A stretch of 62,576 nt of DNA, taken from Bacteroidota bacterium (lineage in GTDB: Bacteria; Bacteroidota; Bacteroidia; Chitinophagales; UBA10324). Location of the stretch: NCBI GenBank assembly GCA_014190575.1, contig BJGQ01000016.1, positions 1-62,576 on the forward strand, written 5' to 3'. The translations under genes were made by a program, and so were the position numbers. Positions 32,779 to 39,996 of the stretch are shown here, one piece after another; within the stretch, counting starts at the first letter, position 1; each line of letters begins with the position of its first letter. The notes under the pieces were generated by a model that worked only from the letters and a program-made list of their open reading frames with translations, did no database searches and was not told the DNA's origin.

Positions 32779-33303
32779 ATGAAACCCTGGTTAAAAATAG
32801 TTTTTTTCTGTATTGCTGTTTCTTCGTTTGTTGGTTGCGACCAGGTGACAAAGAATTTAGCGAAAACACATCTGATGGATGGTCACATTGTTTCATATCT
32901 TAACAACACTTTTGTGTTGAAGTATGCTGAGAACACCGGCGCATTTTTAAGTATGGGAAACGAACTTTCTGATACAGTAAGTTTCTGGATTTTTATTGCA
33001 CTGCCGATTATTTTCCTGATTGGATTATTTGTTTTTGTGTTGCTGAAATTACGCGAGTTGAGTTTGATGAAACTGCTCGGTTTCGCTTTAATTCTCGCCG
33101 GCGGAATGGGCAATGTGATTGACCGCATTTTATACGACCGACATGTAACTGATTTTATGATTCTCGGCATTCAGAATGTGCGCACCGGCATTTTCAATTT
33201 TGCCGATTTATTTGTTTCGGTTGGCGCAGTTACACTCCTGCTTTTTTATCGCACCAAAAAAGAGGAGAATCTGAAAGTGTCAGATAACCAGCCGACAGAA
33301 TAG
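32779..33303 (+). CDS. lspA: Lipoprotein signal peptidase (signal peptidase II)
   Basis: LspA cleaves the signal peptide of prolipoproteins after lipid attachment to the Cys. The ATG gives a 174-residue protein; a TTG nine codons upstream would extend it. The aspartyl-protease dyad motifs are intact: GNVIDRILYDRHVTDF (first Asp region) and FNFADLFVSVGAV (second Asp), and NTGAFLS is the conserved early motif. Four membrane helices. It is the most likely processor of the many lipoproteins in this window. Confidence 0.95.
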   Translation: MKPWLKIVFFCIAVSSFVGCDQVTKNLAKTHLMDGHIVSYLNNTFVLKYAENTGAFLSMGNELSDTVSFWIFIALPIIFLIGLFVFVLLKLRELSLMKLLGFALILAGGMGNVIDRILYDRHVTDFMILGIQNVRTGIFNFADLFVSVGAVTLLLFYRTKKEENLKVSDNQPTE

Positions 33304-33351
33304 CACGACGGTTTCATAGCTTTTACTTTAGCGAAATAAATTCATCTGCTG

Positions 33352-33381
33352 CCCAACCATTCAGATATCATTTCTCGTGTA
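33352..33381 (+). promoter_or_regulatory. Predicted ECF-type promoter of the T9SS/sigma/barrel operon
   Basis: CCCAACCATTCAG followed by TCGTGTA, with 17 nt between AACC (33355-33358) and CGTGTA (33376-33381). An almost identical element with identical spacing lies at 36541-36570. The AACC/CGTnTA layout is that of ECF-sigma promoters. The leader to the first gene is about 35 nt. Confidence 0.6.
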
Positions 33382-33420
33382 TGCAGGTAGAGTGCTAATT
33401 CAAATTAAAAATTGAGTGAA

Positions 33421-34347
33421 ATGAAATTAAAAATTTTAGTTCTGTTCCTTGTTTGCGCTTTGTTCGCATTCAAATCACAGGCACAGCTTTTTTTTACTGT
33501 TTCCGGTCAAATTTCAAATACAAATTTTGCGACTGTTGCAATCGCTATTGAACATTCTGATTCAATGGGATTTCCAATGGTTGATAGCACGAATACAGAT
33601 ACAGGAGGATTTTTCACATTCACATTTTTCCTAAATTCATTTGATTCAATTAAATGCAGTTATAATAATTGTATTGGTGTTGTAACTGATACAATCTTTC
33701 CTACTTTCGGTTCTATTCAAGCAATTTGGAATTCAGATTACTGTCCACCTATTCCTCCACCCGATTCATGCACTGTTATATTCACTTCAAACTACTGTAC
33801 TTGTAACGATACTTTTTTTCTTGAGTTGGATACATCCGGATTGGGTACTAAAACTTTACTCTGGAATTTTGGTGATGGAAATTCTTCTGTTCAAACTTAT
33901 CCGTATCATGAATTCAGTTCACTTGATTTATTTGATGTATGTCTCCAAGTAATTTCAGTAACCAATCAGGATACAGTTTGCAGTTTTTGTCATCAGATTG
34001 GTTTTGATAACAATGGAAATGTGGTGACACGAACAGAAAGGTCGGGTTTGATTATAAAAGTGATTGCTCCGGGAACAAAAATTATTGATGAAGCTCTTTC
34101 TAATTCCATTGCTGTTTTCCCAAATCCTTCGGGAAATAATGCGAGTGTGAATTTTTATACTGATGAAGAAAATATTTACGAATTGAAAATTTTCAACTTA
34201 ATTGGTCAGGAAGTAAAATCATTTTCGGAAAAAGCAGTGAAAGGAAACAATATCTACCATTTTAATTTGAATGAACTCGCCGCCGGAAATTATTTTATCA
34301 CTGTAAAATCCGGAGGAAAAAGATTGACGACTGTGTTTGCTAAATGA
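33421..34347 (+). CDS. Secreted PKD-like protein with T9SS sorting domain, first gene of the sigma-factor operon
   Basis: With the start at MKLKILVLFLVCALFAFKSQ (a TTG three codons earlier is unlikely) the product is 308 residues. Order: signal peptide to about residue 21, a beta-rich N-terminal domain (~22-115), a PKD-like domain (~120-195) with LLWNFGDGNSSVQTYPYHEF, and a C-terminal type IX sorting domain (~230-308: SIAVFPNPSGNNASVNFYTD, LAAGNYFITVKSGGKRL). It is exported across the outer membrane and probably anchored at the surface. The stop lies 4 nt before the sigma-factor gene, which is unusual and ties the secreted protein to the regulator. Confidence 0.82.
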   Translation: MKLKILVLFLVCALFAFKSQAQLFFTVSGQISNTNFATVAIAIEHSDSMGFPMVDSTNTDTGGFFTFTFFLNSFDSIKCSYNNCIGVVTDTIFPTFGSIQAIWNSDYCPPIPPPDSCTVIFTSNYCTCNDTFFLELDTSGLGTKTLLWNFGDGNSSVQTYPYHEFSSLDLFDVCLQVISVTNQDTVCSFCHQIGFDNNGNVVTRTERSGLIIKVIAPGTKIIDEALSNSIAVFPNPSGNNASVNFYTDEENIYELKIFNLIGQEVKSFSEKAVKGNNIYHFNLNELAAGNYFITVKSGGKRLTTVFAK

Positions 34348-34351
34348 ATGA

Positions 34352-34918
34352 ATGACGGAACAATTAATCAATAACGAACTGATTAAATCCTGCATTAATC
34401 AGGACCGAAGAGCACAAAACATGCTTTACAAAAATTCCTATGCCCGCCTCATGAACATCTGCCGCCGCTATGCACGCAACAGCGAGGAAGCGAGGGAACT
34501 TTTCACAATAGGGTTTCTGAAAATTCTGAACAACTTAGAGAAGTATCAATCACAAATGCCGTTCGAGTCCTGGATTTCGAGAGTGATGATTAACACCATA
34601 ATTGACGAACACCGCAAGCATTTAAATTTCAATCAGCATCATCAGTTTATTGACAGTGATGAACTGGAATTTAAAAATGCGGCGGATATAAATGAATACG
34701 AAAAACAAATGAATACCGAGCAGGCATTGAGCATGCTCAAACAATTACCCGAAGCAACACGCAAAGTTTTTTCGCTTTTTGCCATTGACGAATACACCCA
34801 CAAAGAAATAGCTGCAGCGCTTGGCATTTCAGAAAACACCAGCAAGTGGCATGTGAGTGATGCGCGGAAAAAACTGATGAAACAATTGAGTACAACTTTT
34901 AAAACAGAACAAGTCTGA
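34352..34918 (+). CDS. RNA polymerase sigma factor, ECF type
   Basis: ECF sigma factors recruit RNA polymerase to special promoters after a signal. The 188-residue protein contains region 2 (~25-90: YARLMNICRRYARNSEEARE, WISRVMINTIIDEHRK) and region 4 (~125-180: LKQLPEATRKVFSLFAIDEY, THKEIAAALGISENTSKWHV), with the HTH for the -35 element. No region 3 is present. The stop codon overlaps the ATG of the next gene by one base (TGATG), so it is co-translated with its likely anti-sigma partner. Its probable targets carry the two CCCAACC/CGTGTA sites in this locus. Confidence 0.92.
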   Translation: MTEQLINNELIKSCINQDRRAQNMLYKNSYARLMNICRRYARNSEEARELFTIGFLKILNNLEKYQSQMPFESWISRVMINTIIDEHRKHLNFNQHHQFIDSDELEFKNAADINEYEKQMNTEQALSMLKQLPEATRKVFSLFAIDEYTHKEIAAALGISENTSKWHVSDARKKLMKQLSTTFKTEQV

Positions 34919-36525
34919 TGGAAAACAAAAAGAAAAATCCACTCGACGAATTGTTCAGACGAAAGCTGAATGAAGAGCAGCTTGCGCCCGACGATTTGTT
35001 GTGGGATGAAATTGAAACAAAACTGGAAACGAAAAAAACAAGCCGTCGTTTTGGATTATGGGTTTTGATTGGTGCGCTTTTGTTGTGCGGAGTTGCGTCG
35101 TACTTCGCGTTCTTCAATAATCATTCTTCCGTTTCTCCTGTTGTAGCTAAGAAAGTTGCTTCAACTGAAAATAAAATTTCAGGTAATGAAATTCCATTGA
35201 ATTCAACCTCTTCTTCAACTTCCACCTCAACTAATTCTGTTCCTTATAATAACTCTTCAACTACAAATTCAACTTCAACTTCATCTTCAAACAGTAACGA
35301 TTCAAAATCAAATTCAAGTTCTGCAAATAAAAATTCATCCGTAGAAAAAAATAATTCTTCAGTTGTAAATAAAACAACCGAACCAAAAAATTCTTCTTCT
35401 AGAAATCAAACAACTATTGTAAAAAATTCTCCTTCCGAAAATTTATCTGCTTCAAGTAAAAATACTGATAAGCCCATTGAAAAAAAATCATCGAATGAAA
35501 TAAAGAAGAATGAATATTCTTTAATCACAAATTCAAATTCAGTGAGCAATGCAAAAACTGGAATTGATAACTCTCAGAAAGAAATTTCTAATCCCGTTTC
35601 AAATTCAAAGAATGAAACTGCGAATCCTGTTTCGGAAAATTCAGATTCACCTACCGGGAATATTTCGAACGATTCAATAACACAAATTCAAAATACAAAT
35701 CCAACAAACACTGAGATTACTGCTATTACTGACGATAAAACTCTACCTGATACTGCTGCAATTGTAAAACCTATAACACCTGTTGCAGCAAACCCAACTC
35801 CGGTAGCACCTGAAAAAAAATCAAAATGGTTTGTTGAAATCGGAAGCAGTTATCTGAATAATACTCAAGGGCTCGGCAATCACAATTCGTTTTCAAATTC
35901 AGTAGAACAACAGATTGATACTTTATATTATCAGGCAAGATACAAGAATGAAAAATCAGCAGCCACTTTTAATTACAATTTCAATATCGGAATGAAGGTG
36001 AAAAATTTTCAATTCAAATCAGGAATTGATGTAATGCGCTTCGGAGAAAATATACAGTACGACAATCGTGGATTGTGTTTTACCATTGAGGGAAATCCTG
36101 CTCTTGGGTACGATACTTTGCAAGTTCACTCACAAGTTAATAATGCAATTAGTTCGCGCAATGGAAAATCAGTAAATACTTATCTCGGTATTCCGCTTGA
36201 GGTGAATTATTCCATTCCATTAAAAATTCTGAAACTGCAATTTGGGTTGGGCGGATTTGCTTCTACTCCTTTAAAATGGAATTCATACTACCTGAATAAA
36301 ACTGTTACAGGTTTAGAAAATCCTTTCGATTTGAAAATGATTAAATCCATTGTTTTAGGTTATACATTCAATGCCGGTGTTACTGTTCCGATTTCAAAAC
36401 ATTTTGATGCAGTGCTCAATTATGATTTCAGGCAAACAATGAGTCCGATTGAAAAAACAGAATACGGAACTAAAAAAGTTTATAAATCATCAGGCGCGAT
36501 TCTCAGTTTGCGATACAATTTCTAA
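34918..36525 (+). CDS. Probable anti-sigma membrane protein with C-terminal outer-membrane beta-barrel
   Basis: The 535-residue protein has a cytoplasmic N-terminus (~1-42, NPLDELFRRKLNEEQLAPDD, LLWDEIETKLE) of the type found in Bacteroidota anti-sigma or sigma-linked proteins. One membrane helix follows (~45-66, FGLWVLIGALLLCGVASYFA), then a Ser/Asn/Thr-rich low-complexity stretch (~70-295, about 225 residues). The C-terminal domain (~300-535) has alternating strands and ends in LSLRYNF, the aromatic terminus of outer-membrane barrels. No signal peptidase site follows the helix. Inferred: one end in the cytoplasm, the other in the outer membrane, joined by a long linker through the periplasm. 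It is translationally coupled to the sigma gene. Confidence 0.75.
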   Translation: MENKKKNPLDELFRRKLNEEQLAPDDLLWDEIETKLETKKTSRRFGLWVLIGALLLCGVASYFAFFNNHSSVSPVVAKKVASTENKISGNEIPLNSTSSSTSTSTNSVPYNNSSTTNSTSTSSSNSNDSKSNSSSANKNSSVEKNNSSVVNKTTEPKNSSSRNQTTIVKNSPSENLSASSKNTDKPIEKKSSNEIKKNEYSLITNSNSVSNAKTGIDNSQKEISNPVSNSKNETANPVSENSDSPTGNISNDSITQIQNTNPTNTEITAITDDKTLPDTAAIVKPITPVAANPTPVAPEKKSKWFVEIGSSYLNNTQGLGNHNSFSNSVEQQIDTLYYQARYKNEKSAATFNYNFNIGMKVKNFQFKSGIDVMRFGENIQYDNRGLCFTIEGNPALGYDTLQVHSQVNNAISSRNGKSVNTYLGIPLEVNYSIPLKILKLQFGLGGFASTPLKWNSYYLNKTVTGLENPFDLKMIKSIVLGYTFNAGVTVPISKHFDAVLNYDFRQTMSPIEKTEYGTKKVYKSSGAILSLRYNF

Positions 36526-36540
36526 ACTAAAAAATTTTAA

Positions 36541-36570
36541 CCCAACCATTCAGTAATAAATCTTCGTGTA
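36541..36570 (+). promoter_or_regulatory. Second predicted ECF-type promoter, before the large PKD protein
   Basis: CCCAACCATTCAG and CGTGTA with 17 nt between AACC (36544-36547) and CGTGTA (36565-36570), as in the element at 33352-33381. It lies 15 nt after the barrel gene and 80 nt before the next gene. Confidence 0.6.
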
Positions 36571-36650
36571 CATAAATAAGAAGACATTGAAGCTTCAATC
36601 AGAAATAAAAAACTTAAAAATTCTAACTCTACTTTTAAAACCTTAATAAA

Positions 36651-38657
36651 ATGAAAATGAAACACACAACCACTATTAGAAACTCACTTGCGAAATTCTT
36701 TTCTCTTGCTACCATCATTTCTCTGTTTGCCTTTGCTCCAATGAAAACTTCAGCGCAATTGCTTTGCAATGCAGGATTTCAATATTCAATTTCAGGTACA
36801 ACCGTTCAGTTTTGGGATAGCTCCTACTCGTTAAACGGATATACTTGTCAATGGAATTTTGGAAATGGAACCAGTTCTACTCAGTATTTTCCTACTGTAA
36901 ATTATAATTCATCAGGTTCATACTATGTGTGCCTTACCATTACTGATTCGATTAATGGATGCACTGCAACAACTTGTGATAGTATTTATATCAACTCTGG
37001 AGGTGGCGGTTGTTATTGCTATTATAATTCAACAGTGGTTGGTGACACTGTTAATTTTACAGATGCTTCTTCGTCAGGAACCAATTCATGGATTTGGGAT
37101 TTCGGTGATAATTCAACTGGCACAGGTACCAACCCTATTCACATTTATTTGAATTCAGGATACTATAATGTTTGTTTGTATACCACAGATACGGCTGGGT
37201 GTTCAAATGCATATTGCAGTTATGTTTATATCAGTGGAACGAGCGGAAGTTGTCTTGCAAGTTTTAGTTCAGCAAATAGTTCTGGCAACACCTTTACTTT
37301 CAGTAATACTTCAAGCGGAACTGGGGCTTTCACTAATTATTATTGGGATTTTGGTGATGGTTCAAATTCTTATCAAATGAACCCATCGCACAACTATACT
37401 TCATCAGGAGGTTATGTTGTTTGTTTAACAATTGTTGATTCAATAAATAATTTTTGTACAGATACATATTGTGATAGTGTTTATGCAAATGGTACTTCAA
37501 GTTCATGCAATGCCTCCTTCACATTTAACGCTAATGTTAATACTGTATCATTTGTTAATACTTCGACCGGAAATTATACAAATGCTCAATGGAGTTTTGG
37601 CGATGGCACTGGTGCTACAGGGTTAACAGGTGCTACTCATACTTATTCTTCAAATGGCCCATGGAATATTTGCTTAACAATTAGTGATAGTTCAGGAACA
37701 TGTCAGGATTCTTATTGTGTTACACTAACTTTAGGTGTACCAAACAACAATTATTTTATTACAGGAATGATATTCGGAAACAACAGCCCAATTGATTTTG
37801 CAAAAGTTTACCTGATTCAATATGATTCTTTAACTCAAGCGTTAAATCTTATCAGTACCTATGAAGTGAGTATGTTTGATTCTTCAAATTACATTTTTTC
37901 AAATCTTGCGGCGGGTTCATACTTGGTAAAAGCTGCTGCTGATTCGATGGCTGTTAATTATTCTACTTTGATTCCTACTTACTTTAATAATTCATTGTTC
38001 TGGAGTTCAGCATCGTTTGTGAATGTTGGGCCAAGCCAATATGGTGTGAACATAAATTTGATTCAGGGAGTAAATCCGGGTGGCCCTGGATTCATAGGTG
38101 GCTTGGTTTCTCAAGGAGCAAACAAAATGGAAGCTGAAGGCGATCCGCTTTCAGGAATTCAAATTATGTTGCTGGATATGAGTAACACTGCGGTAGCAAA
38201 TACTTACTCTGATGCAAATGGCAATTACAGTTTTGCAAACATTGCTTACGGCACTTATAAAGTATATGCAGAGATGCTTAACAAAATTACCTATCCTGCC
38301 ATTGTAACGATTGATGCAACTGCTCCTTCGGTTACAAATGTTGCGGTGGTTGTCAATACAAATGAAGTAACTACTTATGCGCCTTATCTTGATATCACGA
38401 ATATTGAATCAGCATTGATCTATCCGAATCCGGCAAAAGGAAGTGCAACATTGAATCTGAATTTAACTCAGTCAGGTGATTACACTGTTCAGATTACTGA
38501 TATGACCGGAAGGTTAATTAATACTGAAACTGTTTCAATGATTCAAGGAGAAAACTTAATCAAACTTTCGGTTCAGAATTTTGATGCAGGATTATACCTG
38601 GTTCGTGTATCAGATGCAATCAGTAACTTTAACATGAAACTTACTGTTATAAAATAA
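36651..38657 (+). CDS. Large secreted PKD-repeat protein with T9SS sorting domain
   Basis: The 668-residue protein has a signal peptide (to ~35), four PKD-like domains (~38-355) each with the W-x-F-G-[DN] core (WNFGNGTSS, WDFGDNSTG, WDFGDGSNS, WSFGDGTGA), two prealbumin-like or Cna-B-like beta domains (~365-560, with SYLVKAAADSMAVNYSTLIP and GNYSFANIAYGTYKVYAEM), and a type IX sorting domain (~590-668: ESALIYPNPAKGSATLNLN). Such proteins are surface adhesins or scaffolds; no catalytic site is seen. Unlike its neighbours it has its own promoter, and it is a likely target of the upstream sigma factor. A 19-bp hairpin follows it. Confidence 0.85.
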   Translation: MKMKHTTTIRNSLAKFFSLATIISLFAFAPMKTSAQLLCNAGFQYSISGTTVQFWDSSYSLNGYTCQWNFGNGTSSTQYFPTVNYNSSGSYYVCLTITDSINGCTATTCDSIYINSGGGGCYCYYNSTVVGDTVNFTDASSSGTNSWIWDFGDNSTGTGTNPIHIYLNSGYYNVCLYTTDTAGCSNAYCSYVYISGTSGSCLASFSSANSSGNTFTFSNTSSGTGAFTNYYWDFGDGSNSYQMNPSHNYTSSGGYVVCLTIVDSINNFCTDTYCDSVYANGTSSSCNASFTFNANVNTVSFVNTSTGNYTNAQWSFGDGTGATGLTGATHTYSSNGPWNICLTISDSSGTCQDSYCVTLTLGVPNNNYFITGMIFGNNSPIDFAKVYLIQYDSLTQALNLISTYEVSMFDSSNYIFSNLAAGSYLVKAAADSMAVNYSTLIPTYFNNSLFWSSASFVNVGPSQYGVNINLIQGVNPGGPGFIGGLVSQGANKMEAEGDPLSGIQIMLLDMSNTAVANTYSDANGNYSFANIAYGTYKVYAEMLNKITYPAIVTIDATAPSVTNVAVVVNTNEVTTYAPYLDITNIESALIYPNPAKGSATLNLNLTQSGDYTVQITDMTGRLINTETVSMIQGENLIKLSVQNFDAGLYLVRVSDAISNFNMKLTVIK

Positions 38658-38673
38658 ATCTTGGTTCGCGGTT

Positions 38674-38715
38674 AAACAGAAAGGGCATCTTCTTTTGAAG
38701 ATGCCCTTTCTGTTT
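38674..38715. terminator. Bidirectional terminator between convergent genes
   Basis: A perfect 19-bp stem beginning AAACAGAAAGGGCATCTTC with a TTTT loop. It is flanked by T-rich and A-rich DNA, and serves the PKD gene (plus) and the LamG gene (minus). Confidence 0.85.
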
Positions 38716-38763
38716 ATGTGTGAATTCAAATAGCTAAACTGAGTATTTCTCCCTATCCGAATT

Positions 38764-39996
38764 TTATCTATTAATTACAAACGAATGCAATTCGTTTTTT
38801 CCGTTGTCGTCAATTGCTCTTAAGAAATAAATACCTGATGAAAGAGAACTGATATTTATTTCAGTAGAAGAACTAACCAAATGAATAGGTTTGAATTCAA
38901 TTTGCCCCATTGAATTTACTACACTAATATTCCGTGGGCTTGAATTTCTAAATATCACTTGAATATTGTCTGATGCCGGATTTGGAAAAATATTTATTCC
39001 GTTTAACAAAACATCTTCAATTCCATTTTCAACCGAGCAATCTATAAAAGTGATATTTAGATTATCTGATGCTAAACAACCATGACCAGTTTCAGCATTT
39101 AAGTTAATGTTTATTGTACCGATTCCAGTTCCAGAACTATCAATAGTAACACTTTGCGTGGTTGCTCCTGTACTCCATTGATAAGCAGAATAACCCGCAG
39201 GATTAAGTGTAACGGAATTGCCAGAGCATAAAGTAATATCAGGTCCTAAATAAATTGATGAAGAAAAGAAATCTGATGGCATAATCATTAACGCATTAAG
39301 TTCAGATACAGAAAGTGCGCGATGATAAAAACGAAGGTCATCAATTATACCATTGTAATAATAAGTTCCGGCCTGAACATCTACCATCCCTGAAGAACCA
39401 TCGTTTAAATTGTATGCAAGTGCACCACCTGCGCCGCTATATGTTCCACCATCATTTGCACAATCCACCCAGATATCCATATCAGCAGGTCCACGGATTA
39501 TGGCAGCAATAAAATGCCATTGATTATCATTCACATTTGTTGTTCCGATTTTAGATCTGCGGTGAGCAGGATTAGTTCCTACTACCCCATCACCATAACC
39601 AATTGATAAAGCACCACCAGAAGTTGAATTTACCTGAACAATCAAACCAGTATAAGTATCTACTGTGTTGTCATTCATAAATACACTTCCAAAGTCGGAA
39701 GAGTTACCTTTTATCCAAGTTGTTATAGTGAATGGAAATGTTGTAGAATGAAAATTATTTCCATTGTGAAAGCTTACATATTGATTAACACCATTGAATT
39801 GATATGCAGAATTTGAATTACCCAATCTGTCGTTACATGGTATAGCACCATGATTTGTTCCGTTATTCCCATTGGTTGTCATATCATTTACATTTCCATC
39901 CATTGGGTAGTAGGCAATAAGCGAATCATTAAATGTTTGACTGTATGAAATCTCAAAACTGACAATGATCAATACAGCCGTAAATATATTTTTCAT
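38764..39996 (-). CDS. Secreted LamG-domain protein with T9SS sorting domain
   Basis: The 410-residue protein has a signal peptide (MKNIFTAVLIIVSFEISYSQ, cleaved near residue 20). A LamG/concanavalin A-like domain spans ~25-240 (DSLIAYYPMDGNVNDMTTNG at its start, GIIDDLRFYHRALSVSELNA at its end). A short beta segment (~255-320) follows, and the C-terminus (~330-410) is a type IX sorting domain (GINIFPNPASDNIQVIF, SGIYFLRAIDDNGKNE). It probably binds glycans at the surface; no enzyme domain is seen. It converges on the PKD gene. Confidence 0.85.
   Translation of the reverse strand: MKNIFTAVLIIVSFEISYSQTFNDSLIAYYPMDGNVNDMTTNGNNGTNHGAIPCNDRLGNSNSAYQFNGVNQYVSFHNGNNFHSTTFPFTITTWIKGNSSDFGSVFMNDNTVDTYTGLIVQVNSTSGGALSIGYGDGVVGTNPAHRRSKIGTTNVNDNQWHFIAAIIRGPADMDIWVDCANDGGTYSGAGGALAYNLNDGSSGMVDVQAGTYYYNGIIDDLRFYHRALSVSELNALMIMPSDFFSSSIYLGPDITLCSGNSVTLNPAGYSAYQWSTGATTQSVTIDSSGTGIGTININLNAETGHGCLASDNLNITFIDCSVENGIEDVLLNGINIFPNPASDNIQVIFRNSSPRNISVVNSMGQIEFKPIHLVSSSTEINISSLSSGIYFLRAIDDNGKNELHSFVINR

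Follow-up and report, generated by a model that had tools for sequence, protein, structure and literature searches.

A candidate ECF sigma/trans-envelope anti-sigma circuit for a small set of T9SS surface proteins in a Bacteroidota genome

Which regulator acts at two like elements that stand 5' and 3' of an operon for a sigma factor of the extracytoplasmic function (ECF) type, and which genes does it serve? The locus lies in a 62,576-nucleotide (nt) stretch of a Bacteroidota bacterium genome (GCA_014190575.1, contig BJGQ01000016.1; hereafter the window), part of an assembly of 3.19 Mb labelled G000. Comparison with relatives suggests that the locus is very probably an autoregulated circuit of an ECF sigma and a trans-envelope anti-sigma, dedicated to a few surface proteins of the type IX secretion system (T9SS). 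What was computed directly is the order of the genes, the conservation and placement of the motif, a predicted barrel fold and the homology of the cargos; autoregulation by the sigma is read from relatives.

Both elements have the form CCCAACCATTCAG-N11-CGTGTA (CCCAACC-N17-CGTGTA) with equal spacing, and their coordinates are those given in an earlier note on this DNA. ECF-type promoter candidate 1 (CCCAACCATTCAGATATCATTTCTCGTGTA, 33352–33381) ends 39 nt before the ATG of cargo 1 (33421–34347), a secreted protein of 308 amino acids (aa). The ATG of the ECF sigma gene (34352–34918; 188 aa, regions 2 and 4) follows 4 nt beyond the end of cargo 1, and the sigma stop is overlapped by the ATG of a gene for a 535-aa protein (34918–36525). 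Promoter candidate 2 (CCCAACCATTCAGTAATAAATCTTCGTGTA, 36541–36570) ends 80 nt before the ATG of cargo 2 (36651–38657), a 668-aa T9SS protein with four PKD domains, a conserved core module (residues 366–583; 37746–38399) and a sorting domain; all these features are on the plus strand. Among 25 of 115 NCBIfam rows for the sigma, nothing but sigma70-ECF stands above the cut-off. Both cargos have N-terminal signal peptides, judged by eye, and both match the T9SS type A sorting domain (PF18962, 41.2 bits for cargo 1 and 48.3 for cargo 2, cut-off 27; TIGR04183, 43.7 and 42.6 bits, cut-off 23). The earlier note had called both targets T9SS/PKD proteins, which holds for both tails and for the PKD domains of cargo 2, but the PKD match of cargo 1 is below the Pfam cut-off (18.2 versus 27 bits), and its T9SS tail alone is secure.

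The elements stand out when the locus is followed through the genus. Four orthologous loci (L097–L100) encode sigmas 80–99% identical to that of the window. In three of them (L097–L099), cargo 1 is followed by the sigma, the 535-aa-type protein and cargo 2 in turn; in the fourth (L100), these first three genes and element 2 are present, but no cargo 2 frame was called, in a region with runs of N. Cargo 1 is thus the first gene in the window and in all four. In the aligned upstream regions, 11 of the 12 core columns of element 1 are invariant in five orthologous loci (versus 30 of 127 other columns), and 11 of the 12 core columns of element 2 are invariant in six loci (versus 30 of 114); the blocks that are kept are CCCAAC and CGTnTA. 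The pattern CCCAAC[CT]-N15..19-CGT[GT]TA has 17 matches in the six genus genomes, the own genome included, versus 14 for the reversed pattern. Four of the 17 precede cargo 1, five precede cargo 2, four precede an unlinked SprB-repeat protein, one precedes a lipoprotein-like gene and three are coding. Hence 13 of 17 stand before three families of T9SS proteins, the T9SS tail having been scanned in part of the genus orthologs behind this count. The third cargo, the unlinked SprB-repeat protein, is 1052–1064 aa long; a T9SS tail is seen in three of its four representatives (1052, 1057 and 1064 aa), the fourth being outside the matches listed. Its orthologs (at least 68% identity) are found only in the four genomes that carry the motif at that gene. 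The genus genome without a close sigma match or a cargo 2 core match has no motif match at all. In a fifth genome (G004) no sigma was found; because the barrel end of its 535-aa-type protein is at a contig end just 5' of its cargo 2, the sigma probably falls in an assembly gap.

The motif extends beyond the genus. Among 396 genomes of the order, 36 encode a protein closely related to the sigma (E <= 1e-38), and we took as order loci all 32 matches outside the window's genus and its sister genus, which come from 31 genomes. Searching for CCAAC[CGT]-Nn-CGT[AG] up to 400 nt 5' of the first gene of the operon, we found a spacer of n = 16 in 18 of the 32 loci, none with n = 9–15 or 17–23, and one each with n = 8 and n = 24. 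In control regions 5' of other genes of the same loci, 2 of 158 carry the pattern, and one of these belongs to the gene directly upstream of a sigma. Four further loci have a strict element that is farther off or has a spacer of 15. Near-identical loci inflate these counts, and the 32 loci form 22 clusters at 70% sigma identity, of which 11 have the motif within 400 nt and three more have it at a greater distance or with spacer 15. In the window's group the two blocks are 17 nt apart; outside it the distance is 16 nt. Over the 31 order genomes, CCCAACC-N16-CGTGTA has 18 matches versus 2 for the reversed pattern. Half of these, nine, sit at the sigma operon. Another three stand 5' of unlinked T9SS genes, two of which encode five PKD domains and the third SprB repeats. 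Of the remaining six, four lie 5' of genes typed by eye (two lipoprotein-like, one barrel-like at a distance of 231 nt and one recQ-like at 220 nt), a fifth has no gene nearby and the sixth is coding. The earlier proposal that the sigma drives itself and two T9SS proteins therefore gains support from footprinting, from motif positions in the genus and from the order-wide motif at the sigma operon.

Could the elements instead be sites of a non-sigma regulator, or an RNA feature, that is conserved for another reason? Boxes resembling the housekeeping -7 element lie close by, at 33324 and 36630, which gives this alternative some footing. Against it, the position of the motif follows the sigma operon across the order, and a search of 33000–39000 against Rfam gave no match. 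The two-block AAC/CGT layout with its fixed spacer of 16 or 17, which we take to be ECF-like, also counts against a non-sigma regulator, and we regard this explanation as very unlikely. The boxes themselves are TACTTTAG (33324–33331, 5' of promoter candidate 1) and TACTTTTA (36630–36637, just 5' of the cargo 2 start); they are partly conserved in the alignments of the upstream regions (A6 and A7), and a basal promoter at these boxes is possible. The housekeeping -7 box of Bacteroidota is given as TAnnTTTG in the available part of PMC9723704. A scan for sigma-70 promoters and terminators found nothing above chance (19 versus 20.1 and 1 versus 3.4, respectively). Beyond cargo 2, the inverted repeat CAGAAAGGGCATCTTC/GAAGATGCCCTTTCTG (38677–38712) is terminator-like by eye and is absent from the output of the terminator scan.

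How specific is the motif within the own genome? The short form AACC-N-CGTNTA occurs three times in the window versus 0.99 expected, a count that 9 of 100 shuffles reach. Genome-wide, AACC-N16..18-CGTNTA has 30 matches, as against 106 when the pattern is reversed; open reading frames (ORFs) of at least 60 aa contain 24 of them, and four are intergenic outside the window. We therefore rejected the short form as a genome-wide signal of a T9SS regulon. The longer CCCAAC[CT]-N15..19-CGT[GT]TA matches the assembly twice and at this locus only (reversed pattern, 3). With the second block relaxed to CGT[AG] and a spacer of N16–17, there are four matches (reversed, 6): both elements, one coding match and one intergenic match without an obvious gene. 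A match with two mismatches on contig C25 is inside a 670-aa ORF and was discarded. With a weight matrix built from 14 sites outside the window, element 1 scores 41.0 and element 2 scores 34.1, versus 4.5 for the next best window position; most of the 14 sites were picked by the same pattern, so that the core columns of the matrix are fixed by selection. Two motif sites contrast with at least 150 T9SS-tail matches in the own genome (150 of 308 candidates scored), and the motif is not a general T9SS regulon signal. The scan for the motif at T9SS genes that the earlier note had proposed comes out in favour of its inference in the genus, where 13 of 17 matches of the longer form are at such genes; the short form is at chance frequency genome-wide. 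That last frequency is also what would favour a chance repeat, that is, two look-alike 13-mers in an AT-rich genome; this is contradicted by conservation in five and six orthologous loci and by the order-level motif, and can be considered extremely unlikely.

Two further places in the own genome resemble the motif. An intergenic CCCAACTATTTTGATTAATTATTTCGTA (G000:C32:33033-33060, L184) has an AT-rich region downstream with no clear secreted gene, and may be a weak promoter or chance. At G000:C2:198513 and 198882 (L005, L006), in a long open frame at a contig end, repeats 369 nt apart carry a coding AACC-CGTGTA look-alike.

What would hold such a sigma in check? The earlier note had placed a membrane partner in the circuit; that protein does belong to the locus, and its identity can be refined to a candidate trans-envelope anti-sigma of the Dma type, a class already described. 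Dma proteins are composed of an N-terminal domain, one transmembrane (TM) helix, a disordered tether and a C-terminal barrel, according to the available part of PMC13088901. The gene of the 535-aa protein adjoins and overlaps the ECF sigma gene (34352–34918/34918–36525), as expected of the Dma family. The protein starts with an N-terminal part of about 43 residues and has one hydrophobic segment, at residues 44–67 (Kyte-Doolittle 2.19), which points to a single TM helix. Residues 69–300 are of low complexity (67% S/N/T/K/E/Q) and of low confidence in the model; this tether of about 230 residues is probably disordered. The C-terminus reads ...RYNF. No Pfam match was obtained for the 535-aa protein itself, and OMP_b-brl_2 (PF13568) is matched by 22 of 38 aligned proteins; W29 is invariant in all 38, the window's included. 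Modelled with the 38 sequences, the last 240 residues (296–535) form a predicted OmpA-like barrel (pLDDT 80.7, pTM 0.76); of its ten strand segments, two fall where confidence is low, near residues 81–120. In structure it best resembles OmpA and other small barrels (Foldseek E 2.4e-8), with VIA Z scores of 16.8 to OmpA 9a2m, itself a model (root-mean-square deviation 2.8 over 169), and 15.8 to OmpA 9fzc (2.9 over 163); because of these matches, an eight-strand C-terminal barrel seems likely. Overall, the protein looks like a Dma-type anti-sigma candidate that apparently spans both membranes. By analogy with relatives, it would bind and sequester the sigma. In Bacteroides thetaiotaomicron, loss of Dma2 raises das2 by a log2 of 4.54 and adjacent genes by 2.48–6.00 (PMC13088901, available part), which supports release of an autoregulating sigma.

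The T9SS proteins beside the sigma also recur in relatives. In 16 of the 32 order loci, a same-strand ORF of at least 120 aa ends no more than 320 nt upstream of the sigma. A T9SS tail is found in 12 of these 16 ORFs versus 7 of 201 other ORFs (Fisher P-value = 5e-12, which overstates independence as the loci are related). The tail profile was seeded from the window's family, and a profile partly seeded with the tested genes gave equal counts. Independently, Pfam places the tail in 14 of 21 scanned upstream proteins, some of them not directly adjacent to the sigma. Placement of the cargo gene first in the operon, for which the earlier note knew no description, is thus not unique to this locus, since a T9SS-tail gene stands directly 5' of the sigma in 12 of the 32 loci. 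A hidden Markov model (HMM) of the cargo 2 core (alignment A8; residues 366–583 without PKD and tail, from the window, L098 and L099) matches 10 of the 12 sigma-adjacent T9SS-tail genes and none of 205 other ORFs; the two exceptions, in L150 and L170, have the tail gene directly 5' of the sigma without the core. Given these matches, cargo 2 of the window and the cargo-first genes of relatives are, by homology, one family, and cargo 2 shares its core with the sigma-adjacent T9SS cargos of relatives. In the window's genus, cargo 2 is placed downstream of the sigma operon and has a separate element in front of it.

The cargo-core family is not a strict partner of the sigma, a relation we rejected on finding the core in 72 of the 396 order genomes and, in most of the further loci fetched, no sigma beside it. 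We fetched 20 further cargo-core loci from about 100 matches listed. Sigma and Dma-type genes stand alongside in three; in the other 17 no sigma was found in the stretch fetched, some of these being short contigs. The motif is upstream of two of the three cargo-core genes with an adjoining sigma and of none of the 17 others (three with less than 250 nt upstream), so that its presence tracks the sigma rather than the cargo. On the other side of the Dma-type gene, 24 of 31 order loci (L152–L181) have a same-strand ORF of at least 150 aa within 250 nt downstream, many with lipoprotein-like starts by eye. Four of these ORFs were scanned, and PKD_4 is above the cut-off in L160 and L174 and not in L153 and L158. 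The downstream ORF is possibly another envelope partner.

Is it the local sigma that reads the elements? They could be promoters read by a different ECF sigma that the genome encodes, such as the C32 or C11 paralogs, the local sigma gene being just one target. At least two further sigma/Dma-like pairs exist in the own genome (L069, G000:C32:16000-28000; L070, G000:C11:62000-74000), with sigmas 34% and 31% identical. The motif, however, precedes the operon of the local sigma's ortholog in 18 of 32 order loci, and no CCAAC element is found in the 260 nt upstream of the C32 or the C11 paralog in the own genome. We consider this alternative unlikely. At L070, a further ECF-like sigma gene follows, with a candidate partner of its own. 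Several observations weigh against a dedicated circuit run by the local sigma. Within the genus, the five genomes with the motif are also those with the C32-type sigma, and co-occurrence there cannot separate the two sigmas. The raw genus count hardly exceeds its reversed-pattern control, so that position and conservation carry the argument. Ten of the 32 order loci have no motif by the patterns used (L151, L156, L159, L162, L165, L170, L171, L174, L178 and L181), the sequence 5' of the operon being truncated at L156 (288 nt) and L159 (18 nt). Genome G006 encodes the sigma (L151) on one contig and a cargo-core protein (L278) on another, and the motif is at neither gene. Finally, the full-length model of the 535-aa protein is poor (pLDDT 32), so that its N-terminal anti-sigma fold is putative.

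For the dedicated circuit, we propose the following mechanism. The sigma would recognise CCCAAC[C/T]-N17-CGTGTA (N16 in more distant relatives). Site 1 would drive the operon of cargo 1, sigma and anti-sigma, and site 2, just 3' of the operon, would drive the gene of cargo 2, whose product is a surface protein that carries repeats and the conserved core module. The cytosolic N-terminus of the 535-aa protein may hold the sigma at the inner membrane, which the protein would cross once, its disordered tether passing through the periplasm to a barrel end in the outer membrane. A surface cue on the barrel would free the sigma and raise its own operon and the cargo genes. Conserved adjacency and the PorA precedent (PMC7712824, available part) make the cargo a tempting candidate for the cue; feedback of the cargo on the sigma, the 'closed circuit' of the earlier note, is conjecture. 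More tentatively, the core-bearing T9SS protein might be the ligand or gate of the Dma-type barrel, as part of a secretion gauge by which the surface protein is expressed in step with T9SS export. With such a gauge, a single anti-sigma polypeptide would signal to RNA polymerase, from the cell surface and through both membranes, whether an adhesin-like protein is on display.

Signalling of the FecI/FecR type relays an outer-membrane event to an ECF sigma by way of two separate proteins, a barrel receptor and an anti-sigma; here, one polypeptide appears to do both jobs. The nearest described system is Das/Dma of B. thetaiotaomicron, in which the gene of an ECF21 sigma adjoins that of an anti-sigma with N-terminal domain, TM helix, tether and barrel. 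The local pair resembles it in gene adjacency, in the predicted TM helix, tether and barrel and, putatively, in the N-terminal domain. In its available part, that work deals with vesicles and polysaccharide utilization loci, whereas at our locus the targets are T9SS surface proteins and a promoter element is defined; its main text has no mention of 'T9SS', 'type 9' or 'motif', the terms searched ('type IX' was not among them) (PMC13088901). In Porphyromonas gingivalis, PorA, a small T9SS-tail protein of 246 aa, acts upstream of the ECF sigma SigP, and in the proposed PorA-PorXY-SigP model SigP raises its own gene. A T9SS-tail protein upstream of an ECF sigma and the proposed self-activation of the sigma are points of likeness to our locus. 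That system differs in its two-component relay and in having T9SS component genes as targets, whereas the local sigma has its own anti-sigma candidate; porA homologs are, per the authors, found only in Porphyromonas (PMC7712824, available part). The SM6 promoters of Flavobacterium psychrophilum, for which the responsible sigma is not settled in the available part of their description, have listed targets that include the machinery genes GldN and PorU and no dedicated cargo family (PMC9723704). ECF control of T9SS genes (SigP; SM6 promoters), ECF autoregulation and the Dma class are thus already known. We found no publication that connects a Dma-type pair with T9SS cargo or defines the promoter of such a pair, within a search that covered few subscription papers and neither the first report on Dma nor the ECF classification of 2021.

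No signal is known for the Dma anti-sigmas, a class described only recently; gene order, a defined promoter element and a common cargo family tie one branch of it to T9SS surface proteins. Comparison with dozens of relatives indicates that the output of the switch is a small conserved set of surface-displayed proteins. The locus yields a candidate barrel partner, a reporter sequence for activity and a predicted regulon in a large environmental group of Bacteroidota. It also suggests that some T9SS cargo may be under dedicated sigma control, rather than joint control with the secretion machinery.

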